DNA from: a virus
IMG/VR virus record: IMGVR_UViG_3300044609_001277
Span: 1-36,549 of that record
Direction: 5' to 3' (one strand)
Length of the DNA: 36,549 nt
The position numbers were made by a program, and so were the translations under genes. Positions 15,510 to 30,204 of this stretch are shown one piece after another. The notes beneath the pieces were generated by a model that did not search any database, was not told the origin of the DNA, and was given only the letters and a program-made list of their open reading frames with translations. Numbering within the stretch: the first letter of the stretch is position 1; every line of letters starts with the position of its first letter.

Positions 15510-18500
15510 ATGCAAAATACAGATCTCAGTTTGCAGCCATATTTTGATGATTTCAATGAAAGTAAAAATTTTTATAGAGTGCTGTTTAAGCCTAACTATC
15601 CAGTTCAGGCAAGAGAACTAACTACTCTACAATCAATTTTACAACACCAAATTCAAAAATTTGGGCAGCATGTATTCAAAGAGGGGTCTGTAGTAATTCC
15701 TGGACAGACTGGATTTGACTTACAATATAATGCTGTACTTGTTCAGTCTACAATTAATGGAACAAGTTTTGAAACTATCAGGGGAAATTTAACTGATACT
15801 ATAATTAGAGGAACTACTAGTAATGTCACTGCAAGGGTAATCAATAGTATTAGTGCTGCAGATTCTGAAAAATCTACAGCTACATTATATGTAAAGTATA
15901 TTTCATCGGGAAATGTTGTAAACAATACTCAACTGACTAAATTCTCAAATGGAGAAACATTAGTTGATGAATTAAATAATCCAGTAGCTATTACAGCTAC
16001 TCAAAATGCTTCTAGCTTTATTGGAAGTGCCGCATATATCACTGAGGGAGTGTATTTTTTACGAGGATTTTTTGTAACCGTACCATTACAAAGTATAATT
16101 TTAGATCAGTACTCCAATTTCCCATCATATAAGATTGGATTATCTATATCCGAAACTATTGTAACTGCAGATACAGATTCTTCATTATATGATAACGCAG
16201 TAGGCTCTTCAAACTTTACTGCTCCAGGTGCAGATAGATTACAAATTCAAGCAGCATTAGCAAAGCAAGATATTAATTTTTCATCAGATCCAACTTTTAT
16301 TGAATTACTACGTCTAGAAGATGGTAAATTAGTAGAGCAGGCAGATGTATCCATTTATAATGAACTAGAAAAAAATCTTGCAAGAAGGACCTATGATGAG
16401 TCTGGAAATTATACTGTCAATCCTATTAATCTCAGAATTAAAGAAACTTATAACTCTGGTGAAAATAATGGAGTATATAATTTAAACGATGTCTTACCAG
16501 ATGGCAGAAAAATTTTAAATAGAACTCCAATCACTCAAGATGGAAATGCTATTGATGGACGTAATTATTATACAGTGGAATTGGATCCACTAAAAGCATA
16601 CGTAAAAGGTTTTGAAATTCAAAATACTAGTAAAAACTATTTGACAATAGAAAAACCTAGGAAATTTTTATCCACAAACAATCAAGGTGCTGTTGCATCG
16701 TTTGGAAATTATTTTACTTTACAAGCAAATACTATTAACGGTGGAGTTGCACCAGGATCTATATTAATATTAAATAAAACTACAAACAGTGTAGAAACTC
16801 AAATCGGTAAAGCACGAGTTTTATCTTTAACTGCCGAAGAAAGATTATTCGTTGCAGACCTAACATTATTTACAACTATAACAACAGCACAATCAACTCC
16901 AACTGTTGTGATTGGAGATTTTGTATTTTCTACTAATGGAAGTCAAGGAATTGTAGAGTCTATTAGTGGTAATACTATTGTATTGAGTCAAATTTCTGGA
17001 CAATTCTTAAGTGGAGCTACTATTGCAAATAGTAGAGATTCAAATACATATACTATTTCTAGTGTAGAGAACAATAAAATTGAAAACGTTACTAATGTAA
17101 AAACAGCCTCTGGTTTCTCTGCTTCATTAGCATTAACTCAAGTTGCAATTTCTGGAAGTAGTTTTGTAATTAATAATAACATATTAACTGGAACTGGCAC
17201 TTCATTTTTACAAGACTTAAAAGTTCCAATGAAACTTTTAGTTGGATCTTCAACAGTAACAGTATCTGCAGTGTCTTCAGATTCAAGTGTTACCGTGACT
17301 GGCACAGTTGCAAATGGAACTTATTATAATGTCAAAAAATTAGTTCCAAAGTTAAGCTCATTTGGAAATAACTTTTTTGTCAAATTTTCAAATGAATTTA
17401 TTAAATCTTCCAGTGATATGTCTTACTATAAGACAATTACTGAAAATAAAGTTGTAACTTCTGGCACTGTAACTATTTCAACTACATCAGACTATACAAT
17501 TTCAGCTTCTAACATTATTATAACTAATGCATCTGGGACTGTAGCATTTACACCAACAGTTGTTTCTGCTACTAATGTAAATTTAGCTGTAAGTACTTCA
17601 TTGAATGGAACTTCTGTAAATGTCGTATATAAAGTACGAGTTAACAATCCAACAATAAAAATTAAGTCATCAAATAAATTTAATTTCTTATCTGTAGATA
17701 AAGTAAAAAATCTTACGAATTTAGTATATGGAACTAGAATTAGTGATAAAGATATTTCACTGAAGTTCTCGGATGTATATAGAGTTCATGCTATTCATGA
17801 AGCACTGTCTCCTACAGATACCAATCAATCAATGTTTGATTCTTTGGTAATTAATAATGCGTCTGATTTAACTGTTGGAGATATAATTAGATACGAAAAT
17901 ATTAAAGCTAAAATTATTTCAATTAGCGGAACAACTTTATACGTAGTTTACTTGAGTTCCGAAAAGTTTATTCAAGGAACTTCGTTAGCTTTAAGTGTTG
18001 ATATTATTTCTAGTACTTTAATTACTGGCAGATATATCACCACATCAACTCATGGAAGATATAAAGATATTACAACTAACTATGCACTTGTAAAAAATGA
18101 CAATGCAGAATTTTACAATATTTCAAAATTAGTTAGAATTGAAAATAGACCAACCCCAACAAATAAATTTATTGTAGTATTTGATTATTATAATCATGCA
18201 AATACTTCTAATGATTTTTATTCTACAAATTCATACAATGTATCTGAAGTAGATTATGCATTAATTCCAAATACATATGAGGGAACTCCATATACTGATA
18301 TTGTAGATTTTAGATATGAAACCGTTCCATCTACTGGTACTGGTGGCACACTATCCACTCCATATCAAGAAACTAACTCAGCATTGAATTACTATTCACT
18401 AACTAGATCTATTTCAAATTTTGTCTTCCCAGGAGAAATTGTTAGTGCTGATTATGACTACTATCTTGGCAGAATTGATAAAATTTTCCTAGATGAAAAT

Positions 18501-21500
18501 GGCAATTTAGTTGCAATCAAAGGATCTGAAACTAACACTCCACAAGTCCCAGAAAATATTCAAAATGCGTTATTGCTAGCAACTGTCAATATTCCACCAT
18601 ATATGAAGACAGTTTCTTCTGCTTCATTAAATATTGAGCAGTCTAGAAGATATACAATGAAAGATATTGGTTCAATTGATAAAAGACTTGAAACTGTAGA
18701 AACATTAACTTCTCTCAATCTTCTTGAAATTGGAACCAACAGTCTAAGTATTGTAGATGAAGATGGCAATAATAGGTTCAAAACAGGATTTATTGCAGAT
18801 AATTTTAAAACTACTAATCTTGCAGACCTCAATAATATTCAATATACTGCATCTATTGATACAGATAATGCATTAGTAAGGCCATACCCATATGTAAACA
18901 ATGTAAATTTAAATTATGATTCTGCAAACTCAACCACAACTAAAACTGGCTCTTTAGTTACTTTACCATATGATGAGGTTGCATATATTAGCCAAATTTA
19001 TGCAAGTAGAGTAGAAAATTTACAGCCATTTGAGGTTATTGCATGGAATGGTGAATTAGTATTAAGTCCAAATAAAGATGTCTGGTTCGATACAATTAGA
19101 ACTCAAAGAGAGACTCAACAGATAGATTTATCAGAACCAATTAGATTCCTATTTGACAATAGTGGTGCTTCAGGTGAACAATGGGGTGCATGGAATTCTA
19201 CTGGGTCTGCTAGAACAGGTGGCGGCACTAATGTCTTCCAACAGAGAACTGGAGTTGATAATACATTCTCAACATTAACTCAAGAAATTCAAGTTGGGGA
19301 TAGTATTAATAGTATTGGCACAGAAGAGTTTGTCAGATCCCGAATTGTTGATGTAGTTGCATCTAAGTTAAAGCCCAATACATTATTCCACTTCTTTGTT
19401 GATGATGCACTGAATGATTCAATGATATTCCCTAAAAATATCACTGGAATGACCAATAGGACTGGAACTTTTGTAATTGGTGAAACTGTAACTTTACGTC
19501 CAACATTAGCTAGCACTGTCCAAGGAGCTAATGTAATTACTGCAACAGTAATTGCTGATGATCTAGGTTCATATTCTTCAACTTCCACATATTTAAGTAT
19601 TGACAATATTTTAACTATTGATGGAAGTAATATAAATCCAGTTATATTGGGTTCGACTTTTGTTATATCTGGAAATTCTTCAGGTGCAATTGGAACGCTT
19701 ACTCTTACATCACCTAGAGTAAAAACAGATTCATTTGGAGTATTGAACGCCTTCTTGATTATTCCTCCACAAACATACCAGACTGGCACATCTGTGTTTA
19801 AGTTATGTGATGAAATTACTGGAACTTCAATTTATGGAATTTCTCAGTCAAATGCAGAAACAGTATATGATACTTTAGGTGCAAGAGTTAGCTTAACCAG
19901 CAATGTAGTTTCATTACAAACCCCACAAATCACGTCTACACCCATCAGAGGAACTAGAACAGTCTTCATTCCAGATCCACCACCACCACCACCTGCAGGG
20001 GGAGGAGACCCAGTAGCACAGTCATTCTTTGTAGATTCTACTGGCGGAGTGTTTATATCTTCAATTGATCTATACTTCCAAACCAAAGATCCTTCAGTAC
20101 CAGTCTCTGTAGAAATTAGAACTATGGAGAATGGAACACTCACAAATACTGTAGTTCCATATGGAGTTGCTGTCGTAGATGCATCTAATGTAAATGTTTC
20201 TAATAATGCTTCTGTAGCAACCAGATTTACTTTCCCATCATTGGTATATTTAAATCAAGACACATATTATGCATTTATAGTTAGAAGTAATTCTAAGCAA
20301 TATAAAATGTGGATATCTAGACTTACTGAAAATGATGTATTAACTTCATTTATTATTGATAAACAACCATACTCTGGTTCATTATTTAAATCTCAGAATA
20401 TGTCAACTTGGTCACCAGATCAATTTGAAGATGTTAAATTTGTATTAAATAGAGCTAAATTTATTACAAATACTACATATAACTGCAAGTTAAATAACGA
20501 TCCTGTTCCAGATGCAGTATTAAATCCAGATTCTCTATCATTCACAGATAACTCTGCAACTATTGAAGTATATCATCCAAATCATTGCATGAACAGTATA
20601 CAAAATTATGTTAAACTATCTTCTGTTATGTCAGATGCTCCAGATACTAGTTTAAATACTGCAATCACTACCGCATCACAAACTGGAAATATTACTGTTG
20701 GCAATGCAAGTGCTACTACTTGGGGAACTATCAATAAACTTCCAGTATCTCCAACAAATCCTGGATTTGTATTAATCAATAATGAAATTATTAAATACAC
20801 TGGTATTTCTGGAAATACACTTACTATCTCTGAAAGAGGAGTTTCTGGCAGTGTAGCAGCAACACATGCAATTGGTTCTAGTGTAAAATGCTATTCAATT
20901 AATGGAATTCCATTAACACAAATTAATAAAGTACATCAAATCACTCAAGTGGTTGATTTAGATAGATATAAAATTGCAGCAACCACTAATGCAAATTCCA
21001 CTATTATTGCTGGGGGAAATTCTATAATTGCATCTAGAAATATTCAATATGAGGAATTATATCCAAATATTAATACTCTGGTGCTTCCTTCAACAGATTT
21101 ATCATTTACATTTACAAGTGTTACTGGAAATAGCATTTATGCTGCACAATCCTCATTCTCTCAAATTAATGAAGAATCTGTAGAAAATAAGCAGTATTGC
21201 GAAATGACTACACCTAGATTGGTTGTTTCATCTGCAAATAATTCAATTTATTTCCCATCTAATCCATCATCACTAATATTTAATTTGAGAATGTCTACTG
21301 AAATTGATAACATCAGTCCTGTAGTAGATGTAATTGGGTCATCAGCAATTACTGTATGTAATAGAATTAGCAAAAAAATTCTTAATAATGTCGTAGATAT
21401 TTCTGCAGAATTGACTCCAAATTCTGGTAAATATTCATCATATATTACTAAAAAAGTTACCTTACAAAATACTTCGACTGCAATTAAAGTTCTTTTAGAT

Positions 21501-21785
21501 GGTATTAGAAAACAAGGTTTGAATGGAGACTATTCTGAGATTAAGGTATTTGTTAAAATAAATGGTGATGGAAACCTAGGCTCATTTGATGATATGAATT
21601 ATATTGAATTGCCTCCAATTTCATATCCAACTTCAGTGAATTCATCTGACTACAGAGCATTTGAGTTTGAAGTAAAAAATTTACCGGAGTTTAAAGAATA
21701 CTCAATTAAGGTATGTATGATTAGTGCAGATCAAACCAATGTTCCAAAAATTAGAAACTTCAGGGCAATTGCATTAGCAGTATGA
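15510..21785 (+). CDS. Giant DUF4815-type virion structural protein in the gp9/gp10 position
   Basis: 2091 aa. The N-terminus (QPYFDDFNESKNFYRVLFKP, then PVQARELTTLQSILQHQI and FGQHVFKEGSVV, residues about 8-61) is the hallmark of DUF4815 phage structural proteins. Residues about 1044-1072 (RRYTMKDIGSIDKRLETVE) look like a short helical joint, followed by FKTGFIADNF. A proline stretch PDPPPPPPAGGG (about 1487-1498) precedes a conserved C-terminal beta domain (DPVAQSFFVDSTGGVFISSI, about 1500-1610), as in marine myovirus baseplate proteins. Near 20767-20900 lies another EIIKYTG / ISERGVSGS module. It sits after gene 8 where T4 has 9 and 10, so it likely joins the wedge rim to the fibres. The GAAGG ribosome site lies 8 bases before the ATG. 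Function is inferred from family and place. Confidence 0.85.
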   Translation: MQNTDLSLQPYFDDFNESKNFYRVLFKPNYPVQARELTTLQSILQHQIQKFGQHVFKEGSVVIPGQTGFDLQYNAVLVQSTINGTSFETIRGNLTDTIIRGTTSNVTARVINSISAADSEKSTATLYVKYISSGNVVNNTQLTKFSNGETLVDELNNPVAITATQNASSFIGSAAYITEGVYFLRGFFVTVPLQSIILDQYSNFPSYKIGLSISETIVTADTDSSLYDNAVGSSNFTAPGADRLQIQAALAKQDINFSSDPTFIELLRLEDGKLVEQADVSIYNELEKNLARRTYDESGNYTVNPINLRIKETYNSGENNGVYNLNDVLPDGRKILNRTPITQDGNAIDGRNYYTVELDPLKAYVKGFEIQNTSKNYLTIEKPRKFLSTNNQGAVASFGNYFTLQANTINGGVAPGSILILNKTTNSVETQIGKARVLSLTAEERLFVADLTLFTTITTAQSTPTVVIGDFVFSTNGSQGIVESISGNTIVLSQISGQFLSGATIANSRDSNTYTISSVENNKIENVTNVKTASGFSASLALTQVAISGSSFVINNNILTGTGTSFLQDLKVPMKLLVGSSTVTVSAVSSDSSVTVTGTVANGTYYNVKKLVPKLSSFGNNFFVKFSNEFIKSSSDMSYYKTITENKVVTSGTVTISTTSDYTISASNIIITNASGTVAFTPTVVSATNVNLAVSTSLNGTSVNVVYKVRVNNPTIKIKSSNKFNFLSVDKVKNLTNLVYGTRISDKDISLKFSDVYRVHAIHEALSPTDTNQSMFDSLVINNASDLTVGDIIRYENIKAKIISISGTTLYVVYLSSEKFIQGTSLALSVDIISSTLITGRYITTSTHGRYKDITTNYALVKNDNAEFYNISKLVRIENRPTPTNKFIVVFDYYNHANTSNDFYSTNSYNVSEVDYALIPNTYEGTPYTDIVDFRYETVPSTGTGGTLSTPYQETNSALNYYSLTRSISNFVFPGEIVSADYDYYLGRIDKIFLDENGNLVAIKGSETNTPQVPENIQNALLLATVNIPPYMKTVSSASLNIEQSRRYTMKDIGSIDKRLETVETLTSLNLLEIGTNSLSIVDEDGNNRFKTGFIADNFKTTNLADLNNIQYTASIDTDNALVRPYPYVNNVNLNYDSANSTTTKTGSLVTLPYDEVAYISQIYASRVENLQPFEVIAWNGELVLSPNKDVWFDTIRTQRETQQIDLSEPIRFLFDNSGASGEQWGAWNSTGSARTGGGTNVFQQRTGVDNTFSTLTQEIQVGDSINSIGTEEFVRSRIVDVVASKLKPNTLFHFFVDDALNDSMIFPKNITGMTNRTGTFVIGETVTLRPTLASTVQGANVITATVIADDLGSYSSTSTYLSIDNILTIDGSNINPVILGSTFVISGNSSGAIGTLTLTSPRVKTDSFGVLNAFLIIPPQTYQTGTSVFKLCDEITGTSIYGISQSNAETVYDTLGARVSLTSNVVSLQTPQITSTPIRGTRTVFIPDPPPPPPAGGGDPVAQSFFVDSTGGVFISSIDLYFQTKDPSVPVSVEIRTMENGTLTNTVVPYGVAVVDASNVNVSNNASVATRFTFPSLVYLNQDTYYAFIVRSNSKQYKMWISRLTENDVLTSFIIDKQPYSGSLFKSQNMSTWSPDQFEDVKFVLNRAKFITNTTYNCKLNNDPVPDAVLNPDSLSFTDNSATIEVYHPNHCMNSIQNYVKLSSVMSDAPDTSLNTAITTASQTGNITVGNASATTWGTINKLPVSPTNPGFVLINNEIIKYTGISGNTLTISERGVSGSVAATHAIGSSVKCYSINGIPLTQINKVHQITQVVDLDRYKIAATTNANSTIIAGGNSIIASRNIQYEELYPNINTLVLPSTDLSFTFTSVTGNSIYAAQSSFSQINEESVENKQYCEMTTPRLVVSSANNSIYFPSNPSSLIFNLRMSTEIDNISPVVDVIGSSAITVCNRISKKILNNVVDISAELTPNSGKYSSYITKKVTLQNTSTAIKVLLDGIRKQGLNGDYSEIKVFVKINGDGNLGSFDDMNYIELPPISYPTSVNSSDYRAFEFEVKNLPEFKEYSIKVCMISADQTNVPKIRNFRAIALAV

Positions 21786-22015
21786 TGAAAAAGGTAATGG
21801 TTGATGGGCACCCAGGGTTATATCGAGATTCTGATAGTGGTGCCATCGTTAATAGTAATACATATGAGTATGAATCGTATATGAAAAGTTATCAAATGAG
21901 ACAGAATAAATCTCAAAAAATTGATAAAATTGAGAATGAGCTACAAGATCTAAAATCTGAGCTAACTGAAATTAAAACTTTGCTGTTAAAATTAAATGAA
22001 CGATCTACCACTTAA
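21782..22015 (+). CDS. Small coiled-coil protein, 77 aa
   Basis: The ATG overlaps the stop of the giant DUF4815 gene (ATGATGA; the second Met at 21785 is also possible). The first ~40 residues (VDGHPGLYRDSDSGAIVN) are polar; residues about 44-72 form a strong heptad pattern (IDKIENELQDLKSELTEIKT, continuing LLLKLNE), a clear parallel coiled coil. From memory, similar proteins follow the structural genes of T4-like cyanophages. It is likely a small oligomeric virion or assembly factor coupled to the large protein. Its 3' end overlaps the next small gene by 20 bases in another frame. Specific function unknown. Confidence 0.8.
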   Translation: MMKKVMVDGHPGLYRDSDSGAIVNSNTYEYESYMKSYQMRQNKSQKIDKIENELQDLKSELTEIKTLLLKLNERSTT

Positions 22016-22154
22016 CAAACAATTTACTCTTCAAAAAATTTATAATGATATAGATACGTTGAATGAAGAGGGTGCCAAGCACATTGCAAAAGAATTTGCA
22101 AAATTATATCATATCCAACAACAGGTAGTTATGAACTTATTAATAAAAAAATAA
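21996..22154 (+). CDS. Small helical protein, 52 aa
   Basis: The ATG at 21996 lies inside the end of the coiled-coil gene (20-base overlap, different frame) and runs 52 codons to TAA at 22152. The product starts MNDLPLNKQFTLQKIYNDID and continues TLNEEGAKHIAKEFAKLYHI, predicted to be two amphipathic helices. No good ribosome site is visible, consistent with translational coupling. It occupies what would otherwise be a gap of about 140 bases, ending just before the palindrome/promoter region. Helical periodicity and codon pattern support a real gene; I recall similar short proteins in cyanophages but cannot name a function. Confidence 0.65.
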   Translation: MNDLPLNKQFTLQKIYNDIDTLNEEGAKHIAKEFAKLYHIQQQVVMNLLIKK

Positions 22155-22162
22155 TTTATGAG

Positions 22163-22193
22163 GAGGTCTCATTATAAATACTAAGGAGACCTC
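22163..22193 (+). promoter_or_regulatory. 8-bp perfect palindrome with late promoter in its loop
   Basis: GAGGTCTC (22163-22170) and GAGACCTC (22186-22193) are exact reverse complements separated by 15 bases, and those 15 bases contain a perfect TATAAATA (22173-22180). A G-T wobble can extend the stem (22162/22194). The T-run (22206-22211) starts about 12 bases after the stem, too far for a standard terminator. It lies between the small-helix gene and the first fibre-type gene. It could end upstream transcripts, modulate the promoter or be a protein-binding site. Confidence 0.75.
22173..22180 (+). promoter_or_regulatory. T4 late promoter, perfect consensus TATAAATA (in palindrome loop)
   Basis: Exact T4 late octamer, 33 bases before the ATG of the 110-aa gene. 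Predicted transcription start near 22186, at the beginning of the right arm of the palindrome. Probable promoter of the fibre-gene group. Confidence 0.75.
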
Positions 22194-22197
22194 TCTA

Positions 22198-22205
22198 TAT
22201 AAATA
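22198..22205 (+). promoter_or_regulatory. Second perfect TATAAATA octamer
   Basis: Exact consensus, 25 bases after the first. It ends only 8 bases before the ATG at 22214, so a transcript from it would be nearly leaderless (start near 22211). It could be a real second promoter or part of an AT-rich spacer. Confidence 0.5.
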
Positions 22206-22213
22206 TTTTTTAA

Positions 22214-22546
22214 ATGGCAGCTGTAAAAAACCTGTATGTTGATCAAGGCTCTGATTTTAATGCCCATATTACAATTTATGATGATAATAATGCTCCCTGG
22301 AATTTGAGTGGGTATACTGGTCAAGCTAAAATAAGAAAATCTTATTATAGTTCATCGTATGTAAATTTTACTGTGACATTTGCAGCATCCAGATCTAGTG
22401 GAACTATAGTTCTTGAGTTGTCATCTAGCCAAACATTATCCTTAGAACAAGGTAGATACTTATATGATGTTTTGATCACTGATGAGCATGGCAAAAAAAC
22501 TAGAGTATTAGAAGGAATTGTTACCATTAATCCAGGAGTAACATGA
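22214..22546 (+). CDS. Fibre/baseplate accessory protein with BppU-like Ig domain, 110 aa
   Basis: The protein reads YVDQGSDFNAHITIYDDNNA, then NLSGYTGQAKIRKSYYSS, and near the end GRYLYDVLITDEHGKKTRVL followed by EGIVTINPGVT. This pattern (DQG..F, DDN, L.GYT..A.IRKSY, G.Y.YDV, EG.V.V.P.VT) is a small beta-sandwich domain widespread in phage tails and similar to the N-terminal Ig-like domain of BppU-type baseplate proteins. It probably caps or attaches a fibre. There is no ribosome site close to the ATG; two perfect late octamers lie upstream. The stop overlaps the next start (ATGA). The family is recognisable; exact position in the virion is unknown. Confidence 0.8.
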   Translation: MAAVKNLYVDQGSDFNAHITIYDDNNAPWNLSGYTGQAKIRKSYYSSSYVNFTVTFAASRSSGTIVLELSSSQTLSLEQGRYLYDVLITDEHGKKTRVLEGIVTINPGVT

Positions 22547-22779
22547 ACGTAAACGTAAGATTGCAACAAAACGCACAAGTAAAATCTACTGTTTCAAATC
22601 AACCACAGGTAATAACTGTATCAACAAATACTGCAAATAGATTGTCATCATTATCTGATATTGATACGTCTAGTTTGTTACATGGGGCACTTCTTCAATA
22701 TGATAGTGGTTTAAATGCTTGGGTTGCTTCAAACATTATAGAAAGATCTGGGTTAATTATCAATTGCGGCAACTACTAA
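22543..22779 (+). CDS. Short fibre-associated protein, 78 aa
   Basis: ATGA overlap with the preceding gene. The N-terminus is short beta strands rich in Gln, Val and Thr (MNVNVRLQQNAQVKSTVSNQ). The middle, LSSLSDIDTSSLLHGALLQY followed by DSGLNAWVASNI, matches the 'L.DV(D)...G..L.YD...W.A' element commonly found in phage tail fibre proteins. It ends in NCGNY. At this length it is probably an adaptor or a fibre fragment encoded separately from the large fibre that follows 18 bases later. Function inferred from the motif and the neighbours. Confidence 0.7.
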   Translation: MNVNVRLQQNAQVKSTVSNQPQVITVSTNTANRLSSLSDIDTSSLLHGALLQYDSGLNAWVASNIIERSGLIINCGNY

Positions 22780-22797
22780 CCATCACAGGAAACGGAA

Positions 22798-25245
22798 ATG
22801 GCAACCATCATTAAAATTAAAAGATCCAGTACTACCAGTACACCTAATTTGGGGCAAGGTGAATTAGGTTATTCCTGGGGATCTAGTACATATACAGATG
22901 CACAGTCAGCTACTGTAACATCATATGGTAAGCTATTCCTAGGTACTGGAACTGAAACTGGTGGAATTGCTGCCAATATCGAAATTATTGGTGGAAAGTA
23001 TTTTACGGATCTATTGGATCATGGCCATGGTACTCTAACTGCAAACTCTGCAGTTCTAGTAGATTCTGCCAAAAAAATTAATGAGTTTTACGTAGATAAT
23101 ATTGGGTTAGATGCAAATACAATATCATCCACTAATATAGACGGAGATATTGTACTAGATCCAAATGGAGCTGGAGAAATTCAAATTCCAGATGATACAT
23201 ATTTAACATTTGGAACAAGTAAAGATACTAAAATTAGATATGATGAAACAACTAATGATAGACTAGAGGTAGAAGGTGCAGATTGGAATTTTGCAAGCGG
23301 GGTTGCAGTTTCAATTTCAGACACCACTGCATCAGTTGGCACTGGATCTGGAGCTTTAATCGTTTCCGGTGGAGTAGGAATTGCAGGAGACATATATGTT
23401 GGAGGTTCACTTAATGTAGGACAGTCGTTAAATCCAACCGATTTAACAGTTAGTGGAGATTTAACTGTTCAGGGTGGAGATGTAAATTTAATATCTGGGG
23501 CAACAGATTTTAATATTATTGACAATACTGCTGCGGCATTGAACATAACTGAAGGATCAAATTCATATTTTAAAATTGATACTACAAATAATTCTGAACT
23601 AATATCTATTGGAAATACTTTATCCAAGACTAATATTGAAATATTAAATAATGCTGCTAATGTATTTGCAGTAAAGCAAGCATCAAATTCATATATTAAT
23701 GTAACTACTTCTGCAACTTTTGAAACTATTACTTTAGGAAATACACTAACATCAATTAATAGTATTATCAAAGATAATGCTGATAATGCTTTTGTTGTAA
23801 GTGAAGGTGCAAACGAATATGTAAAAATTAATACTACTAATAACCTTGAGCAAATAATTTTTGGAAATGCAATTTCAACAATTCAAACTAATGTAAAAGA
23901 TAATTCTTCAAGTGCGTTTTCAATTAAGCAAGATACCACAAATTATGTAAATATTTCTACAACAGATAATAATGAATTAATTGATATTGGAAATGATATA
24001 ACAAAAGTAAATATTTCAGTTGAAGATAATACAAGTAATGCATTTATATTAAAGCAAGATTCAAATAATTATATAAAAATAGATACTACAACTGGTGCGA
24101 AATTAATTACGTTTAGTACTGGTAATGTTGATATTGACAATGATTTAAACATTGATGGTGGAGATTTAACTACTAATCAAAGTACTTTCAATTTACTCAA
24201 TACTACTGCAACTACAGTAAATTTTGCCGGTGCTGCTACAAATATACAAATCGGTGCATCAACAGGCACAACAAATATTAATAATAGTCTTGATGTTGAT
24301 GGAACCCTTAATATTGATGGTGGAGATTTAACAGTTTCCACAACTACTTTTAATCTTGCAAACACAACTGCAACTACAGTCAATGCATTTGGTGCTGCAC
24401 AAAATTTAAACTTAGGTAATGCATCCACTGAAGTTGACTTTGGTGATTTGAGAATTATTGGTTCTACCATTTATAGTGATAATTCAAATGCACAAACAAT
24501 TACCATTGACCCATATCCAGCAGGTGGAGATTCTGGTGGTAATGTTGTTGTTCGTGGTAATTTACAAGTATCTGGAACTACCACAACTGTCAATTCAACT
24601 GTAATGACAGTTAATGATCCTATCTTTACATTAGGAGATAGCATCAGTGAAAAAACAGTAACTACAGCGGCTTCAAGTGGAGCAACTGAACTTATTCTCG
24701 ATAATGTAATTGGATTGAATGTTGGAGACATTGTTTCTGGACTTGCTTCAATTGTAATTAATACTAAAATTTCTGCGATTAATCCAGGAACTAATGCAAT
24801 TACATTAGATACTGCTATTACATCTGGTATTGCAGCAAGTACAAATACTTCTCCACAAATTTTAACTTTCACTCAAGGTGCTGATGATAATAAAGATCGT
24901 GGTATTGAGTTTAAGTATTATAATGGTGGCATTAAGACTGGTTTCTTTGGTTACGATGAATCTGGTGCCACTGAAGGAGCAAATACCACTTATTATTTTA
25001 CATATATTCCAGACGCAACCAATACTTCACAGGTATTCTCTGGAACAGTTGGCAGTGCATACTTTAACACAACCAAGTTAGAGATTGGTGTTCAGAATGG
25101 TATTGCATTCTTTGATCAATACAAAAAAATTACTACAACTGTAGCAGCAGGAACTGCCGATGCAACCACATCCAATCAAATTCTTACTGTAAATGGATCG
25201 GGTGTTCCAGTTTGGACAACCACAATTGATGGAGGAAGTTACTGA
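22798..25245 (+). CDS. Tail fibre-type virion protein, 815 aa, with beta repeats
   Basis: The N-terminus MATIIKIKRSSTTSTPNLGQ, followed by GELGYSW and a FLGTG-type turn, is the typical start of fibre proteins in T4-like marine phages. Residues 236-443 are five 42-residue repeats; residues about 450-546 hold a 54-residue repeat pair (LNIDGGDLT ... STFNL.NTTATTVN). Then follow GDLTV/VRGNLQVSGTTTTVNST beta-helix-like turns, a FTLGDSI segment, and a C-terminal domain with GIEFKYYNGGIKTGFFGYDE, which resembles a conserved fibre tip or trimerisation region. No chaperone or peptidase motif is evident. AGGA lies 7 bases before the ATG. It is probably a trimeric fibre or whisker; receptor binding is possible but not shown. 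Confidence 0.8.
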   Translation: MATIIKIKRSSTTSTPNLGQGELGYSWGSSTYTDAQSATVTSYGKLFLGTGTETGGIAANIEIIGGKYFTDLLDHGHGTLTANSAVLVDSAKKINEFYVDNIGLDANTISSTNIDGDIVLDPNGAGEIQIPDDTYLTFGTSKDTKIRYDETTNDRLEVEGADWNFASGVAVSISDTTASVGTGSGALIVSGGVGIAGDIYVGGSLNVGQSLNPTDLTVSGDLTVQGGDVNLISGATDFNIIDNTAAALNITEGSNSYFKIDTTNNSELISIGNTLSKTNIEILNNAANVFAVKQASNSYINVTTSATFETITLGNTLTSINSIIKDNADNAFVVSEGANEYVKINTTNNLEQIIFGNAISTIQTNVKDNSSSAFSIKQDTTNYVNISTTDNNELIDIGNDITKVNISVEDNTSNAFILKQDSNNYIKIDTTTGAKLITFSTGNVDIDNDLNIDGGDLTTNQSTFNLLNTTATTVNFAGAATNIQIGASTGTTNINNSLDVDGTLNIDGGDLTVSTTTFNLANTTATTVNAFGAAQNLNLGNASTEVDFGDLRIIGSTIYSDNSNAQTITIDPYPAGGDSGGNVVVRGNLQVSGTTTTVNSTVMTVNDPIFTLGDSISEKTVTTAASSGATELILDNVIGLNVGDIVSGLASIVINTKISAINPGTNAITLDTAITSGIAASTNTSPQILTFTQGADDNKDRGIEFKYYNGGIKTGFFGYDESGATEGANTTYYFTYIPDATNTSQVFSGTVGSAYFNTTKLEIGVQNGIAFFDQYKKITTTVAAGTADATTSNQILTVNGSGVPVWTTTIDGGSY
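23503..24126 (+). repeat. Five 126-bp (42-aa) in-frame repeats in the fibre gene
   Basis: Units start at 23503, 23629, 23755, 23881 and 24007, an exact 126-base period with no indel; the last unit is slightly short. Protein consensus: .I.DN..NAF.IKQ..N.YI.I.TT...E.I.IGN..... Examples: FNIIDNTAAALNITEGSNSY (unit 1), TNVKDNSSSAFSIKQDTTNY (unit 4), ISVEDNTSNAFILKQDSNNY (unit 5). DNA copies have diverged; the amino-acid spacing has not. Confidence 0.85.
24145..24435 (+). repeat. 54-aa repeat pair in the fibre gene
   Basis: LNIDGGDLTTNQSTFNLLNT starting at 24145 recurs as LNIDGGDLTVSTTTFNLANT starting at 24307, 162 bases (54 codons) later. Both are followed by TATTVN, an Ala/Gly turn and an N.Q/LNLGN-type strand. 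The second copy is shorter at its end. Confidence 0.75.
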
Positions 25246-25251
25246 TAAATA
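25244..25251 (+). promoter_or_regulatory. T4-late-type promoter octamer (GATAAATA) for the neck genes
   Basis: It overlaps the TGA stop of the fibre gene (25243-25245), one mismatch from consensus, 20 bases before the ATG of the 73-aa gene. Likely transcribes the 13-14-15-16 group. Confidence 0.6.
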
Positions 25252-25271
25252 ATTAAAATAATGAGGTAATT

Positions 25272-25493
25272 ATGACTCCAGATGAGGCAAACACTCTCAT
25301 GCAAGTCATGAGTAACAAAATTAATCAATTGACTCAACAAAATATAATGTTAGAGTCTAAAGTAATGTACTTGAATTCTATAGTTCAGCAACTACAGAAT
25401 TCTGATGCCCAATTAAATGATGGAGGAACTTTTGATGACACCCCACCAGTAAAACAAAATAATGGCAAAACCAAACAGCAGGGCACAACTTAA
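25272..25493 (+). CDS. Small coiled-coil protein upstream of gp13, 73 aa
   Basis: Starts MTPDEANTLMQVMSNKINQL and continues with a heptad-rich helix (IMLESKVMYLNSIVQQLQ, about residues 25-42), then a disordered polar tail (DDTPPVKQNNGKTKQQGTT). GAGG lies 5 bases before the ATG and a late-promoter octamer is just upstream. The last 32 bases overlap gene 13 in another frame, so the disordered tail may be tolerated only because of the overlap. A coiled-coil protein in this place may be a small neck or fibre-attachment factor; the sequence does not tell. Moderately sure it is expressed. Confidence 0.7.
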   Translation: MTPDEANTLMQVMSNKINQLTQQNIMLESKVMYLNSIVQQLQNSDAQLNDGGTFDDTPPVKQNNGKTKQQGTT

Positions 25494-26283
25494 AGAATAT
25501 TGCCTACGCAAATTAGGTAAACCTGTAATTGAAATTAATGTTGATGACGATCAAATAGAAGATCTCATCGACGACACAATTCAAATTTTTAATGAGAGAG
25601 CCTATAATGGCATGGAAAGGATGTACTTGAAGTACAAACTTACCCAAGAAGATCTTGATAATGGAAAGAAAAGAAATTTTACTACTACTAAAACTGACAC
25701 CAATGATTCTGATTCATCCAGGACTTTAAGTTTTGAAGAAGGAAGAGGATATCTAACAGTTCCAGATCACGTTATTGCAGTGCAAGGCATTTTTAAAGTA
25801 TCAAATGCTTTTGTTAATAACATGTTTGGTTTTAGATATCAGTTCTTTCTAAATGACTTTTATAATTTCTATTCATATGATATTATGAATTATTATATGG
25901 TGCTGACTTATCTAGAAACACTAGATTTTATGTTAGAAGGTAACAAAGATATTCGTTATAATAAAGTTCAAAATAGATTGTATATTGATCTTGATTGGGG
26001 TATGCAATCTAAAGATGATTTTATTGTTATTGATTGTTATAGAGCATTAGATCCAAATGAGTTCAATAAACTTTATAATGAAATTTGGGTCAAAAAATAT
26101 TTAACTTCACTTATCAAAAAGCAGTGGGGTCAAAATTTATCTAAATTTGAAGGTATTCAGATGCCAGGTGGGGTAACTTTCAATGGTCGTCAATTATATG
26201 ATGATGCATCTGGAGAGTTGGATAAGCTATATGAAGAACTTCTAAGTACATATGAACTGCCACCACTTGATATGGTAGGATAA
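25462..26283 (+). CDS. gp13: Neck protein gp13 (head completion)
   Basis: 273 aa, near T4 gp13 (309 aa). The N-terminus (SRAQLKEYCLRKLGKPVIEI, then NVDDDQIEDLIDDTIQIFNE) is the usual cyanophage-type gp13 start, which fixes the ATG at 25462 although it overlaps the previous gene by 32 bases and has no strong ribosome site. Further conserved parts: YLTVPDHVIAVQGIFKV (about residues 97-113) and a Trp/Tyr-rich C-terminal half. gp13 joins with gp14 to form the neck that seals the filled head and receives the tail. It is coupled to gene 14 by a TAATG overlap. Confidence 0.93.
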   Translation: MAKPNSRAQLKEYCLRKLGKPVIEINVDDDQIEDLIDDTIQIFNERAYNGMERMYLKYKLTQEDLDNGKKRNFTTTKTDTNDSDSSRTLSFEEGRGYLTVPDHVIAVQGIFKVSNAFVNNMFGFRYQFFLNDFYNFYSYDIMNYYMVLTYLETLDFMLEGNKDIRYNKVQNRLYIDLDWGMQSKDDFIVIDCYRALDPNEFNKLYNEIWVKKYLTSLIKKQWGQNLSKFEGIQMPGGVTFNGRQLYDDASGELDKLYEELLSTYELPPLDMVG

Positions 26284-27380
26284 TGAAAAACGTTTACTTT
26301 TCCCATGGAACATCATCAGAACAAAGATTGTATGAAGATTTAATTATAGAATCTTTGAAAATTTATGGTTTTGATGTTTATTATTTGCCAAGAGAATTTT
26401 CAGATGATGACAGATTATTCAGAGAAGATCCTCTTGCATTATTTGATGAAAACTACATGATAGAAATGTATGTTTCTAACTACGAAGGATTTACCGGGGA
26501 AGGAACGTTATTAACTAAATTTGGAGTACGTATTGCAGAAGAGGCAACATTTATAATTTCAAAGAGAAGATGGGAAGATCTAATCTCCTCATCAAACAAT
26601 TTACTCACCAACGAAAGACCTAATGAAGGTGATGTAATTTATTTCCCTCTAACAAATCAACTATTTCAAATTAAATTTGTAGAGCACAACAAACCATTTC
26701 GACAATTAGGACAGATTGCGACATATCAACTAGTTTGTGAAGTAATGGAGGATTCCAGTGAAAGATTTGAAACTGGGGTAGAAGAAATAGATAAAATTAG
26801 AAGAGAGGAAGGATATTCTATTACATTTAAACTTACAGAAGGAATTAAGCAAATTAATGTTCTCAATGGAGGCACCGGATATACTGCATCTGGAACTACT
26901 GTAACTTTTGGTATTGTAAGTGGAGCATCTGGTGCTCAAGCTGCTGCTACAGTTTCTGCAGGAGTAATTACAGGAATTAAAATTATTCAACCTGGATCTG
27001 GATATAATTCTGTTCCTGCAGTAATTATCGGTGGTGCTGGAAATGGAGCATCTGCACAGGCCGTATTGGCACCAAAAGGCATCTATAAATTTGAAGAATT
27101 AGTTACTGGTTCTATTAGTGGCGCTACTGGAAAAGTTATAAGATATGATGTAACTAATAAAGAGCTTGAGCTTATAGATATAGTAGGAAAGTTTAAAGAC
27201 GGAGAAACTTTAATCGGAGGAACTAGTAATGCAGAGTGGGTAATCAGTACCTTTAGCTCTATTGAAAATGAAAATGATGACTTCAACGAAAACAAATGGT
27301 TTGAAGATGAAGGTGACCAAATTATCGACTGGTCCGAAAGAAATCCATTCGGTGAATATTCAAATATGGGAGAATTTTAA
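26283..27380 (+). CDS. gp14: Neck protein gp14 with an inserted beta-repeat region
   Basis: 365 aa against about 256 in T4. The conserved parts are at both ends: the N-terminus (YFSHGTSSEQRLYEDLIIES; later MIEMYVSNYEGFTGEGTLLT; then FQIKFVEHNKPFRQLGQIAT) and the C-terminal FNENKWFEDEGDQIIDWSER. Between about residues 186 and 322 lies extra sequence: two glycine-turn beta motifs (VLNGGTGYTASG, IIQPGSGYNSVPAVIIGG) and a SISGATGKVIRYDVTNKELE element like modules in gp7 and gp8 here. The insertion keeps the frame and probably forms a surface domain on the neck. It overlaps gene 13 and gene 15 by TAATG. The gp14 call is secure; the role of the insertion is unknown. Confidence 0.93.
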   Translation: MKNVYFSHGTSSEQRLYEDLIIESLKIYGFDVYYLPREFSDDDRLFREDPLALFDENYMIEMYVSNYEGFTGEGTLLTKFGVRIAEEATFIISKRRWEDLISSSNNLLTNERPNEGDVIYFPLTNQLFQIKFVEHNKPFRQLGQIATYQLVCEVMEDSSERFETGVEEIDKIRREEGYSITFKLTEGIKQINVLNGGTGYTASGTTVTFGIVSGASGAQAAATVSAGVITGIKIIQPGSGYNSVPAVIIGGAGNGASAQAVLAPKGIYKFEELVTGSISGATGKVIRYDVTNKELELIDIVGKFKDGETLIGGTSNAEWVISTFSSIENENDDFNENKWFEDEGDQIIDWSERNPFGEYSNMGEF

Positions 27381-28177
27381 TGTTAGGCACACATTTTTAT
27401 AACGAATCAATTCGTAAAACAATTATTGGATTTGGCACTCTATTTAATAATATAGAACTCAGAAGAAAAGACAAAGATGGAGTTGTTAAGCAATCCATTA
27501 AAGTTCCTTTTGCTTATGGCCCAGTTGAAAAGTTTTTAGCAAGGATTGAAGCAGATCCAGATTTAGATAAAAGAAGACCAACTCAAATTCAGTTGCCCAG
27601 AATTGCATTTGAGTTAAAGGGAATTACATATGATCCCGCAAGAAAGTTAGGACCAACTCAGGTATGCAGAACTCCAAAAAATGGAGAAACTGGTATATCA
27701 TATTCACATTATATGCCAGTTCCATATAATTTAGATTTTGAGCTTGCTATCATTAGCAAAAATAACGATGATGCTGTTCAAATTTTAGAACAAATTTTAC
27801 CTTTCTTTCAACCATATTTTTCAATTACGATCAATATGGTTTCAGAAACAGATGAGAAAAAAGATATTCCAATTTTACTAAATGGTGTAACTATCCAAGA
27901 TGATTATGAAGGAGATTTTGCCACCAGAAGAACTATTATTTACACTTTAACATTTACTGCAAAATCATATATTTATGGACCAGTTACAACTTCAGATGTA
28001 ATCAAGAAGGTCAATATTGATATTGGCACTGCAATTAACGCCAACAGATATGTGACATATAGTGTAACTCCAAAAGCATTAGAAGATAATAATAACGATG
28101 GAGTTATTAATACTCTAGATGATGCTTTAGTAGAAGCAGATGATGATTTTGGATTTAATGAACTTTGGACTGAATAA
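27380..28177 (+). CDS. gp15: Tail completion / sheath stabiliser gp15
   Basis: 265 aa, close to T4 gp15 (272 aa). Conserved features: MLGTHFYNESIRKTIIGFGT at the N-terminus, VPFAYGPVEKFLAR (about residues 43-56), the MPVPYNLDFELAIISKN block (about 113-129), and IPILLNGVTIQDDYEGDF (about 160-177). gp15 caps the finished tail tube and sheath and connects to gp14 of the neck. Translation is coupled to gene 14 (TAATG) and gene 16 begins 2 bases after its stop. The C-terminal end (DDALVEADDDFGFNELW) is strongly acidic. Confidence 0.95.
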   Translation: MLGTHFYNESIRKTIIGFGTLFNNIELRRKDKDGVVKQSIKVPFAYGPVEKFLARIEADPDLDKRRPTQIQLPRIAFELKGITYDPARKLGPTQVCRTPKNGETGISYSHYMPVPYNLDFELAIISKNNDDAVQILEQILPFFQPYFSITINMVSETDEKKDIPILLNGVTIQDDYEGDFATRRTIIYTLTFTAKSYIYGPVTTSDVIKKVNIDIGTAINANRYVTYSVTPKALEDNNNDGVINTLDDALVEADDDFGFNELWTE

Positions 28178-28179
28178 TC

Positions 28180-28599
28180 ATGTCAACATTCGATAAATTA
28201 GATGACGCTTTTAATATTGTCCCTCAAGATACAGTTTCCGAAACAGAAATTGTAAAACTTGAAGATGATATAAAAGATATTGAAAAAGATTATGAATATA
28301 GTAGAGAACAATTATATAATTTAATTGGAAAGGGTCAGGAAGCGATTGATGGCATCATGGATGTAGCTAGAAATAGTGATCACCCAAGGGCATATGAAGT
28401 TGCATTCCAGGGCATTAAAAATATTGCTGATATGACCGATAAATTAATTGATTTGCAAAAAAAGATGAAAACTATGGATGAAGATTCATCTACAAGAAAA
28501 GGTCCATCCACTGTAAATAATACTATGTTTATTGGAAGCACTGCAGAACTTCAAAAGTTTCTAAAGCAATCAAAAATAAATAATACAGAAGAAATTTAG
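28180..28599 (+). CDS. gp16: Small terminase subunit gp16
   Basis: 139 aa; T4 gp16 is 164 aa. The N-terminal part is acidic; residues about 40-100 form the helical core (YSREQLYNLIGKGQEAIDGI, then DHPRAYEVAFQGIKNIADM and KLIDLQKKMKTM), probably the coiled-coil oligomerisation region. The C-terminus NNTMFIGSTAELQKFLKQ matches the cyanophage gp16 tail, which may contact gp17. It recognises phage DNA and regulates the gp17 packaging motor. Placed directly after gene 15 as in T4, but gene 17 is not next: two genes (183 and 347 aa) come between. Confidence 0.92.
   Translation: MSTFDKLDDAFNIVPQDTVSETEIVKLEDDIKDIEKDYEYSREQLYNLIGKGQEAIDGIMDVARNSDHPRAYEVAFQGIKNIADMTDKLIDLQKKMKTMDEDSSTRKGPSTVNNTMFIGSTAELQKFLKQSKINNTEEI
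28575..28582 (+). promoter_or_regulatory. T4-late-type octamer (AATAAATA) inside the 3' end of gene 16
   Basis: Within the last codons of gene 16, 27 bases before the ATG of the 183-aa gene, whose AGGAG site (28598-28602) lies in the predicted leader. Could be a real promoter for the inserted genes and gp17; coding constraint (Lys/Asn codons) makes chance likely too. Confidence 0.4.
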
Positions 28600-28609
28600 G
28601 AGTATCTTA

Positions 28610-29161
28610 ATGTCTGTTTTAAAAGTTGTACAAAATATTGCAGCTGTATCATGTACTGGAGGAAATGCAGCTCAATCTTCTGCAGTTATTGTAAGAAGTG
28701 GAATTTATCGCTTTACTGCTGATGCATCTGATGCTATTCATGTGGCTTGGGGTGGAAATCCAACTGCTGTAGACGGAAATGATTTCCACATTCCAAAAGA
28801 ACAGTCAGAACTAGTTAAGTGTGCCACTCCAAAAAAAGTACAAATTATCTCTATTGATAAAGGTGTCACAAATACTGTATTGAATCTAAACTTGGGTGGT
28901 GGTAGACCAGGACATCCATTTATTGTTGGAGATTACGTAACATTAACTGGGTCTTCTGTTGCAGCTTATAATACTGGAATTGCTCATCTAGAGGTTACGG
29001 CTGTAACTGATACTAGCATTACAGTAGCATTAAATTCATCTGCATATGCAAATTTTACTGGAACTGCAACTCTAAATAATTCAATTAAATTCTCAGTAAA
29101 ACCAGATGGCAATGGTGCTGCAGTTGGTCACATTACTGAAGTTCAAATAGTAGGTGGATAA
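28610..29161 (+). CDS. Unknown beta-rich virion-type protein, 183 aa
   Basis: AGGAG overlaps the gp16 stop and stands 7 bases before the ATG. The protein is beta-rich: GIYRFTADASDAIHVAWGGN (about residues 32-51), followed by DFHIPKEQSE, resembles the small domain seen in several phage structural proteins that begins with a strand pair and an A.GG.PTA turn. The C-terminal half (IVGDYVTLTGSSVAAYNTG, VTDTSITVALNS) looks like the Ig/beta modules of tail proteins. No catalytic motif. I infer a minor head or tail surface protein, but the place between the terminase genes is unexpected. It overlaps the next start by TAATG. Confidence 0.75.
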   Translation: MSVLKVVQNIAAVSCTGGNAAQSSAVIVRSGIYRFTADASDAIHVAWGGNPTAVDGNDFHIPKEQSELVKCATPKKVQIISIDKGVTNTVLNLNLGGGRPGHPFIVGDYVTLTGSSVAAYNTGIAHLEVTAVTDTSITVALNSSAYANFTGTATLNNSIKFSVKPDGNGAAVGHITEVQIVGG

Positions 29162-30204
29162 TGGCTAAACTGAGAGTTCCTACAGAAAAGGAAATCGCCA
29201 AAAAACATGGCGTTTCTGTTGATTATGTCATTAGACAAGCAGAAGTCGGTTCTACTGTAGAAAGAGAGCACGTAACAACTCACCAAGAGGCTTATGGAAT
29301 TGCTCTCCAGCATATTGCTGAGTTTCCAGATTACTACAAGCATTTACTAAAAATGGAAAAGAAATTAAAGGGAGAATGGAAAAACGGCAAAAAAGCTGTT
29401 AAAGAAGAAAAAGAGGAAGTTAGATATTGCCATATATGTGAAAAACCAGAAAAGAAATCAGAATGTTCATATGGTCCTAGTGCATGGGAAATGAATACCA
29501 GTCTTTTGAACATGCAAGAAGATCATAAAGAAATTGCTTCTGGCAAAATCAAAGATCACGAAGGTTACATGGCAAACCTTGAAATGGATCAAATGGAAAG
29601 ATCCATTGAAATGCTTCGTAAAATTATTCGTAAATCAAATCAACAGCTTCCTGCATGGGTCCAATCAAAAATTACACGAGCTGCAGATTTTATTGATACC
29701 GCAGCAGAATATCTGTCATCTGATGCAAAAATTAGTGAGCAGAAATCTTTCTCTCAGTTTATGAATGAGGCAGATAATGTAAGTTTTCAAATTGGTTCTG
29801 GACATAGTGCTGCTAGAAGACAAGCAAAGATTAGAAATCTTGCAGATAGAACAACAAGTGCAGGAGAAGAATCTGCTGCTAAATCTAAATTAAAAGGACC
29901 AGATTACAAAAAACCAAAACCACAAAAAAATGTGTATATTCCAAGAAGCGGCACACAATTAAATACTGAGGGGGCTGCTTGGACAAAAAAGTCTGGTAAG
30001 AGTCCTAGTGGAGGACTCAACGAAAAGGGAAGACGTTCATATGAACGTGAAAATCCTGGATCTGATTTAAAACCACCTCAACCAGAAGGAGGACCACGGA
30101 AAAAATCATTCTGTGCAAGAATGGGAGGCAATCCTGGACCAATGAAAGACGAAAAGGGCAGACCAACAAGAAAAGCATTAGCTCTGCGTAAATGGAAATG
30201 TTAA
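29161..30204 (+). CDS. Mosaic protein: DUF5661-like, Cys cluster, and C-terminal 'FCARMGG' domain, 347 aa
   Basis: Residues about 1-65 (EKEIAKKHGVSVDYVIRQAE, then EREHVTTHQEAYGIALQHI and EFPDYYKHLLKME) match DUF5661-like phage domains. Next comes a basic region with C90, C93 and C102 (CHICEKPEKKSEC), possibly half a zinc site. A helical middle (about 163-190, LPAWVQSKITRAADFIDTA) resembles a domain found in several T4-like phage proteins. A Lys/Gly-rich linker leads to residues about 278-347 (SPSGGLNEKGRRSYEREN ... SFCARMGGNPGPM ... ALRKWKC), a block I know as DUF6321-like (name from memory). The three parts occur separately in other phages. Sitting between gp16 and gp17 with TAATG coupling, it may be packaged or act in packaging; unproven. 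Confidence 0.8.
   Translation: MAKLRVPTEKEIAKKHGVSVDYVIRQAEVGSTVEREHVTTHQEAYGIALQHIAEFPDYYKHLLKMEKKLKGEWKNGKKAVKEEKEEVRYCHICEKPEKKSECSYGPSAWEMNTSLLNMQEDHKEIASGKIKDHEGYMANLEMDQMERSIEMLRKIIRKSNQQLPAWVQSKITRAADFIDTAAEYLSSDAKISEQKSFSQFMNEADNVSFQIGSGHSAARRQAKIRNLADRTTSAGEESAAKSKLKGPDYKKPKPQKNVYIPRSGTQLNTEGAAWTKKSGKSPSGGLNEKGRRSYERENPGSDLKPPQPEGGPRKKSFCARMGGNPGPMKDEKGRPTRKALALRKWKC

Follow-up and report, generated by a model that had tools for sequence, protein, structure and literature searches.

Two perfect T4-type late promoter octamers, one between the arms of a hairpin and one just beyond it, stand at the left edge of a tail-fibre gene block that has been exchanged once together with the hairpin and both promoters. 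We put at about an even chance the reading, drawn from sequence comparisons, that the element is a fused transcription-unit boundary: the hairpin would shield the fibre block from upstream RNA, and the promoters in and beyond it would restart transcription. The tandem promoters, P1 and P2, would drive the tail-fibre genes, and only RNA reading through from the upstream baseplate unit would form the hairpin, with P1 in its loop. The folded read-through RNA would insulate the fibre unit, most likely through pausing or ending of the upstream transcript or protection of its 3' end, and less likely by blocking ribosomes from re-initiating at the fibre ATG, and late RNA from P1 and P2 would escape the hairpin. 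The boundary reading is favoured because the comparisons with start-site hiding, termination and protein sites, taken in combination, point to it.

The window, i.e., the whole stretch of DNA that was analysed (36,549 nt; IMGVR_UViG_3300044609_001277, positions 1 to 36,549; one strand), comes from a T4-like phage and covers part of its genome, with genes for baseplate, fibre, neck, terminase and tail on the + strand. The closest terminases in the phage collection are those of cyanophages, with 76.5% identity to Synechococcus phage S-CREM1. The small ORF ahead of the hairpin (Table 1) belongs to phrog_27081, a family of unknown function, and its homologues precede the same hairpin/promoter element in relatives. 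For the first gene after the promoters, the matches are phrog_1084, a family of unknown function (E 6.6e-30), and, at E 1.8e-27, phrog_3304 (L-shaped tail fiber protein assembly). The head-tail adaptor gene at the other end of the fibre block is one that we take to be T4 gp13-like. The neck-protein gene at 26283-27380 (Pfam T4_neck-protein) has an additional C-terminal part that resembles portions of baseplate and fibre PHROGs families, and the stretch 24120-24400 of the 815-aa fibre gene has several matching places in locus L587, which suggests a change of repeat copy number in the fibre.

Table 1. Coordinates of the hairpin, the tandem late promoters and the adjoining genes in the window.
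Feature	Position	Strand	Basis or remark
52-aa ORF (MNDLPLNKQF...)	21996..22154	+	Stop codon 22152-22154; final cistron upstream of the hairpin
Segment replaced relative to G008 (L584)	22157..25527	+	Takes in the hairpin, both promoters, the fibre genes and 66 nt at the start of the adaptor gene
Hairpin 5' arm, GAGGTCTC	22163..22170	+	Sequence, RNA fold, pair counts
P1, perfect T4-type late promoter octamer TATAAATA	22173..22180	+	Between the hairpin arms
Hairpin 3' arm, GAGACCTC	22186..22193	+	P1 RNA predicted to start at 22186, 13 bases after the first base of the octamer
P2, second perfect TATAAATA	22198..22205	+	Predicted start 22211; 3-nt leader to ATG 22214
110-aa gene, tail-fibre-assembly type	22214..22546	+	First gene after P1/P2
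Head-tail adaptor gene	25462..26283	+	phrog_211; right neighbour of the fibre block

The preliminary description of this DNA had placed a perfect octamer within the 15 bases between two exactly complementary 8-bp arms, with a second octamer 25 bases further on, and this geometry holds in full: the arms pair perfectly across a 15-nt spacer (22171-22185), and P1 and P2 lie 25 bp apart, start to start. The 5' arm begins 8 nt past the stop codon of the upstream ORF, and the fibre ATG sits 20 nt past the 3' arm with no visible Shine-Dalgarno sequence. In the predicted RNA fold, the first two bases of the P1 octamer also pair, with 22182-22183. The region 22150-22215 folds at -18.1 kcal/mol (z -4.1), a value equalled by one of 200 shuffles, and the enclosing-palindrome score was equalled by 9 of 3000 constructs in which the octamer was given random window flanks; the hairpin exceeds chance expectation. 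It had also been remarked that these are the only two perfect octamers noted at gene boundaries and that they precede fibre-type genes. A search of both strands of the window finds P1 and P2 alone, fewer copies than expected (shuffles: mean 7.3, sd 2.6), and the gene that starts at 22214 is of the fibre-assembly type by its phrog_3304 match. Elsewhere in the window, late-type octamers take the form AATAAATA or GATAAATA; seven such sites lie 28-47 nt upstream of listed gene starts. Folding energies of their regions range from -2.0 to -7.9 kcal/mol, and the strongest of these folds, at 13790, is A+T-rich and encloses its octamer. P1 lies at the usual distance from the ATG (41 nt), and the 16 nt of P2 are atypical.

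By sequence and position, the element agrees with a T4-type, gp55-dependent late promoter as defined in a passage of PMC2988020, namely TATAAATA about one helical turn before the start, at a late gene boundary. The same source numbers the late octamer from -13, so that +1 is expected thirteen bases past its first base, at the two starts given in Table 1. Since P1 RNA is predicted to begin with the first base of the 3' arm, and P2 RNA beyond both arms, the hairpin should be formable by upstream read-through RNA only. AGGAG occurs at 22161-22165 and 22184-22188, and the second copy ends 25 nt upstream of the ATG, in agreement with the earlier remark that the AGGAG of the arms cannot serve this start codon. 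Inspection by eye revealed no leader peptide following the 3'-arm AGGAG and ahead of ATG 22214.

The fibre-assembly gene is encoded at 47 loci and the upstream 52-aa ORF at 28, and the window together with the latter 28 yields 18 distinct 43-nt sequences around P1. An exact octamer is present at the P1 position in the window and in all 28 loci, and an in-register hairpin in 13 of the 18 distinct rows. In one further row, L259, the pairing is between AGAGGT and ACCTCT, whose spacing differs (18-nt loop, -5.5 kcal/mol). The other four rows (L249, L255, L258 and L261) have no hairpin, with folds of -0.7 to -4.9 kcal/mol, and nest within hairpin-bearing rows in a tree of the upstream DNA, indicating that the hairpin is dispensable and can be lost. 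Twelve of the 13 hairpin rows also have P2, which is missing in L269 and in the four rows without a hairpin; its distance to the ATG is 15-16 nt in 11 of the 13 (once as CATAAATA) and 20 nt in L268. Both octamers with absent or weak pairing were seen in L041, L047, L083 and L039, all outside the 18-row set. The hairpin tracks homologues of the upstream ORF even when a different gene comes next: in L087 and L094 it follows the ORF homologue and directly precedes a homologue of the head-tail adaptor gene, with no fibre block between them.

Co-variation of the arms, proposed earlier as a check, was positive against shuffles on three of five measures, both for the 13 hairpin rows (alignment A2, picked from the 18 after the pairing had been inspected) and for all 18. 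In the 13 rows, 89.0% of the cells are paired (reached by 3 of 500 shuffles), 11 cells are changed on both sides (0/500) and covariation is 0.236 vs 0.160 (0/500). The corresponding values for the 18 rows are 78.2% (1/500), 15 cells (3/500) and 0.212 vs 0.161 (4/500). The number of double-changed pairs (5 in the 13 rows, 40/500; 6 in the 18 rows, 200/500) and of further pair types (13, 38/500, and 16, 131/500) does not rise above the shuffles in either set. These shuffles ignore relatedness, and the cell counts overstate independent events. Slid controls gave 35-57% pairing, one of them in the 18-row set having 14 double-changed cells vs the 15 real ones. All three C-to-T changes in 5'-arm columns 12 and 14 keep a U-G pair. 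On the evidence of these alignments, the pairing of the hairpin is maintained by two-sided changes. The 3'-arm GGAGA is invariant across the 13 rows and the 5' arm is more variable, so that part of the arm conservation may belong to the promoter start region.

A scattered repeat was considered as an origin of the element and rejected. The core TTATAAATAYTARGGAGA occurs in 36 viral-contig stretches, 15 of them with the hairpin and every one of these at the present boundary; the other 21 are without it, two (L083 and L099) at the same gene and 19 elsewhere. The scan detects this core alone, and hairpins with other stems would be missed. Relatives of the fibre-assembly gene occur in 108 records, and this boundary was inspected in six named isolates among them (Melnitz-1, Melnitz-3, Mosig, HTVC008M, DSL-LC03 and P-HM1), and none has the hairpin; a weak 5-bp version (p 0.039) stands at the same boundary in Melnitz-1.

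Predicted terminators recur at this gene boundary. Terminator-like hairpins were found in 21 of 70 distinct regions upstream of the fibre-assembly gene (L028, with insufficient upstream DNA, is omitted), compared with 24 of 1000 window segments taken as the null. Nineteen of the 21 fall among the 37 regions in which the octamer lies more than 16 nt from the ATG, and the remaining two, in L012 and L045, are the window-type hairpin itself. In 17 of the 70 regions (e.g., L547, L556 and L563) the stem ends 5-7 nt upstream of a late octamer. These relatives share with the window an orthologous boundary with a hairpin and a late octamer and differ in that their stem ends before the octamer and carries a U-run, whereas the window has its octamer in the loop and no clear U-run. 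In its tail, TCTATATA, the best 8 nt hold four T, and six of the 13 hairpin rows attain at least five T in eight, at the most favourable stem length. Of the two hallmarks of an intrinsic terminator, the window thus has the stable, G+C-rich hairpin but not the U-run right after the stem. Of the predictions suggested earlier, RNA folding gave the strong fold described above; a rule-based terminator scan, which allows loops of 3-8 nt and demands a T-run, did not report the window hairpin. The proposal that the structure ends or pauses upstream transcription and the promoter restarts it fits the relatives' stems, although the tail of the window hairpin itself is weak in U. L384 and L132 have homologous tail-fibre genes (proteins MALTRVTSGG, which is phrog_529, and MALTRITSGG), each preceded by a U-tailed stem that holds a late octamer in its loop; the two stems are unrelated, AACCCCT/AGGGGTT (p 0.0035) and ATCTAG/CTAGAT (p 0.02).

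A promoter inside a hairpin calls to mind T4 gene e and I-TevI, where the fold in read-through RNA would hide the ribosome site and late RNA started within the hairpin would be freely translated. Passages in PMC3014915 and PMC2988022 describe such hairpin-embedded late promoters, with the ribosome site hidden in earlier RNA, for T4 e, I-TevI, I-TevII, I-TevIII, segB and the Aeh1 mobE. The window element resembles this group in that the octamer lies within hairpin-forming sequence and late RNA would be without the 5' arm. The T4 e leader is laid out in the same way: TATAAATA occurs twice in tandem, arms of 7 bp flank the second copy, and the 3' arm carries AGGAGG. Nevertheless, we regard control of this type at the fibre start as unlikely. 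The opening energy of positions -18..+12 in read-through vs P1 RNA is predicted at 5.8 vs 3.8 kcal/mol for the window; the values for comparison are 17.4 vs 4.3 for T4 e, 22.8 vs 3.3 for the DSL HNH gene, 14.2 vs 5.5 for the G001 HNH gene and 14.5 vs 9.5 (a difference of 5.0) for I-TevII. The start region of the window is somewhat more paired in read-through RNA (unpaired 0.33 vs 0.53 in P1 RNA), and two of the 13 relatives are partial exceptions (L087, 15.7 vs 7.5, i.e., 8.2; L001, 9.7 vs 5.2, i.e., 4.5); the other 11 differ by -1.5 to 2.5. Furthermore, the 3'-arm AGGAG lies too far ahead of the ATG, as noted above, and would be incomplete in P1 RNA. The window element is thus predicted to combine the T4 e layout with little start-site hiding, and it differs from the T4 e group also in the 20 nt between 3' arm and ATG, in having no visible Shine-Dalgarno sequence and in serving a late structural gene behind other structural genes. 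An unhidden start region behind a hairpin is also found in seg43 of Aeromonas phage 25, described in PMC2988022 as having a very stable hairpin just upstream of, not over, its ribosome site; the passage mentions no loop promoter there.

The survey of octamers in loops scored 175 contexts, taken from 17 of 19 records (all but G011 and G013), out of 218 octamer sites listed for the 19. Five contexts reached p <= 0.0035 (~0.6 expected), one of them a copy of the window element, and 12 reached p <= 0.05 (~9 expected), two being copies of it. The enrichment of promoters in loops is confined to the extreme tail, and some of the contexts are homologous. The five strongest matches include T4 I-TevII, the annotated HNH endonuclease of DSL-LC03 and the HNH endonuclease ORF of G001. 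The T4 e loop octamer falls outside the survey by its edge rule; with its 7-bp arms it scores 9, the 99th percentile of the T4 null.

The remaining alternatives deny the hairpin a role in RNA. If P1 and P2 were two ordinary late promoters, the palindrome would have no function and would have arisen as a by-product from the promoter start region (CTTATAAATAYTARGGAGA) together with recombination. The rows without a hairpin would be expected, the locus does recombine, the number of double-changed pairs stays within the shuffles, and GGAGA is retained in L083 and L099 (=L039) despite weak folds of -1.8 and -4.2 kcal/mol. Against this stand the paired cells, double-changed cells and covariation, which exceed nearly all shuffles, and the perfect stems of 12 bp in L001 and 14 bp in L012, which extend well past the promoter; a mere by-product is distinctly unlikely. 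The preliminary description had also suggested that a protein might bind the arms and control fibre expression. In such a case the palindrome would act in DNA as the site of a dimeric protein controlling P1. A perfect inverted repeat around the promoter would suit such a protein, but the arms change sequence jointly with pairing kept, no single fixed site is conserved, and the spacing differs in L259, so the suggestion has lost support and is now very improbable. Finally, phage N4 virion polymerase promoters open as an extruded DNA hairpin, and the arms could in the same manner extrude and present the octamer, which does lie between them, single-stranded to the late polymerase. Loops of 7-15 nt are not known as the N4 promoter form, and arms of this kind accompany few late octamers in related genomes, as the survey shows. 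PMC2988020 describes late promoters as comparatively slow to open and as having higher activity when the DNA is supercoiled, which fits such a mechanism; we nevertheless hold it to be extremely unlikely.

The boundary reading gains a further dimension from the comparison of the window with G008 (L584), a phage contig nearly identical to it outside the exchanged stretches. Identity is 99.61% over 16778-22156, drops to 70.23% over 22157-25500 and returns to 98.68% over 25501-27400. Mismatches start at 22157 (the previous two are at 22016 and 22064), and the last of the block is at 25527, so that the left edge of the exchanged block is the foot of the hairpin and the right edge lies 66 nt into the adaptor gene. 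The hairpin core differs between the two genomes and is still paired (AGGTCT/AGACCT vs AGATCT/AGATCT), and the fibre block was therefore replaced together with the hairpin and promoters. The pair is mosaic: it diverges again at ~28.5-30.2 kb and ~32.2-32.9 kb, which makes the hairpin one break point among several. Among locus pairs at least 93% identical upstream and with enough upstream sequence for comparison, a change at this boundary occurred only between the window and L008 with its copy L010. The exchange at the hairpin border is one independent event, in a mosaic pair. Of the other diverged stretches, the one spanning 28400-30200 begins near a AATAAATA late-type octamer at 28575, and the other spans 32200-32900.

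A promoter and a stem-loop tied to gene shuffling are known from T4-like phages as PeSL (promoter early stem-loop) elements, according to PMC4503421. The window element shares with them, as they are described there, the link to gene shuffling and the position at the border of exchanged gene blocks (one exchange, and L087 and L094 without the fibre block). It differs in that its promoter is late and in the loop and that its core with the hairpin was met at one boundary only, whereas PeSL elements, by the same definition, combine an early promoter with a stem-loop at high density in shuffled regions. A more far-reaching, tentative and rather unlikely interpretation is that the element is a late counterpart of PeSL: a late-promoter stem-loop cassette that would act as a self-insulating start module, with one promoter in the loop of a conditional hairpin and another behind it, near-leaderless late mRNA and a role as the travelling left border of swappable fibre blocks. 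A new fibre set would then be expressed correctly whatever its upstream context. There are precedents for late promoters as such, for late promoters embedded in hairpins and for borders made of a terminator plus a promoter. The combination seen here (a loop promoter, a little-hidden start, predicted near-leaderless RNA from P2 and the border of swapped fibres) had no match in the literature passages and listings covered, including PMC2984593, PMC9004378 and PMC3037559, with PeSL compared through one citing passage. If the boundary reading is right, the element would form the left border of a fibre block open to exchange, and T4-like phages could swap host-recognition (fibre) genes without loss of expression, the block bringing its promoters and the hairpin shielding it. 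One promoter-in-hairpin layout would then serve two separable jobs, the hiding of a start codon and the marking of a transcript boundary.

Several other arrangements of late octamers came to light in the related genomes. Upstream of the fibre-assembly gene in L518-L545, 18 of 47 distinct regions have an octamer (NATAAATA) whose first base lies exactly 13 nt ahead of the ATG, and in one more the distance is 14 nt. The 13-nt spacing would put the predicted start on the A of the ATG, giving an apparently leaderless late mRNA with the spacing strictly kept. Titles and abstracts in the open-access subset of the literature yielded no paper on leaderless T4-like late mRNA or on promoters in terminator loops. 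In L385 (G001:79800-81600) and in OR003938 at 40821, 12-bp hairpins enclose a late octamer in their loop, an arrangement shared with T4 homing endonucleases; the downstream ORFs are, respectively, an HNH endonuclease ORF (phrog_2255, E 1.6e-31; no Pfam match) and an annotated HNH endonuclease. A late octamer is instead part of the 5' arm of a long hairpin in L127, L136, L143, L149 and L159 (contigs G001-G004 and G008), where the other arm reaches up to the start codon of a small ORF (MTSTQKLYESYF...). In L143, the arms are GGAGTTTTTATAAAT and ATTTATAAAAACTCC, and the opening energy of 17.3 vs 2.7 kcal/mol suggests a start-site block like that of T4 lysozyme.
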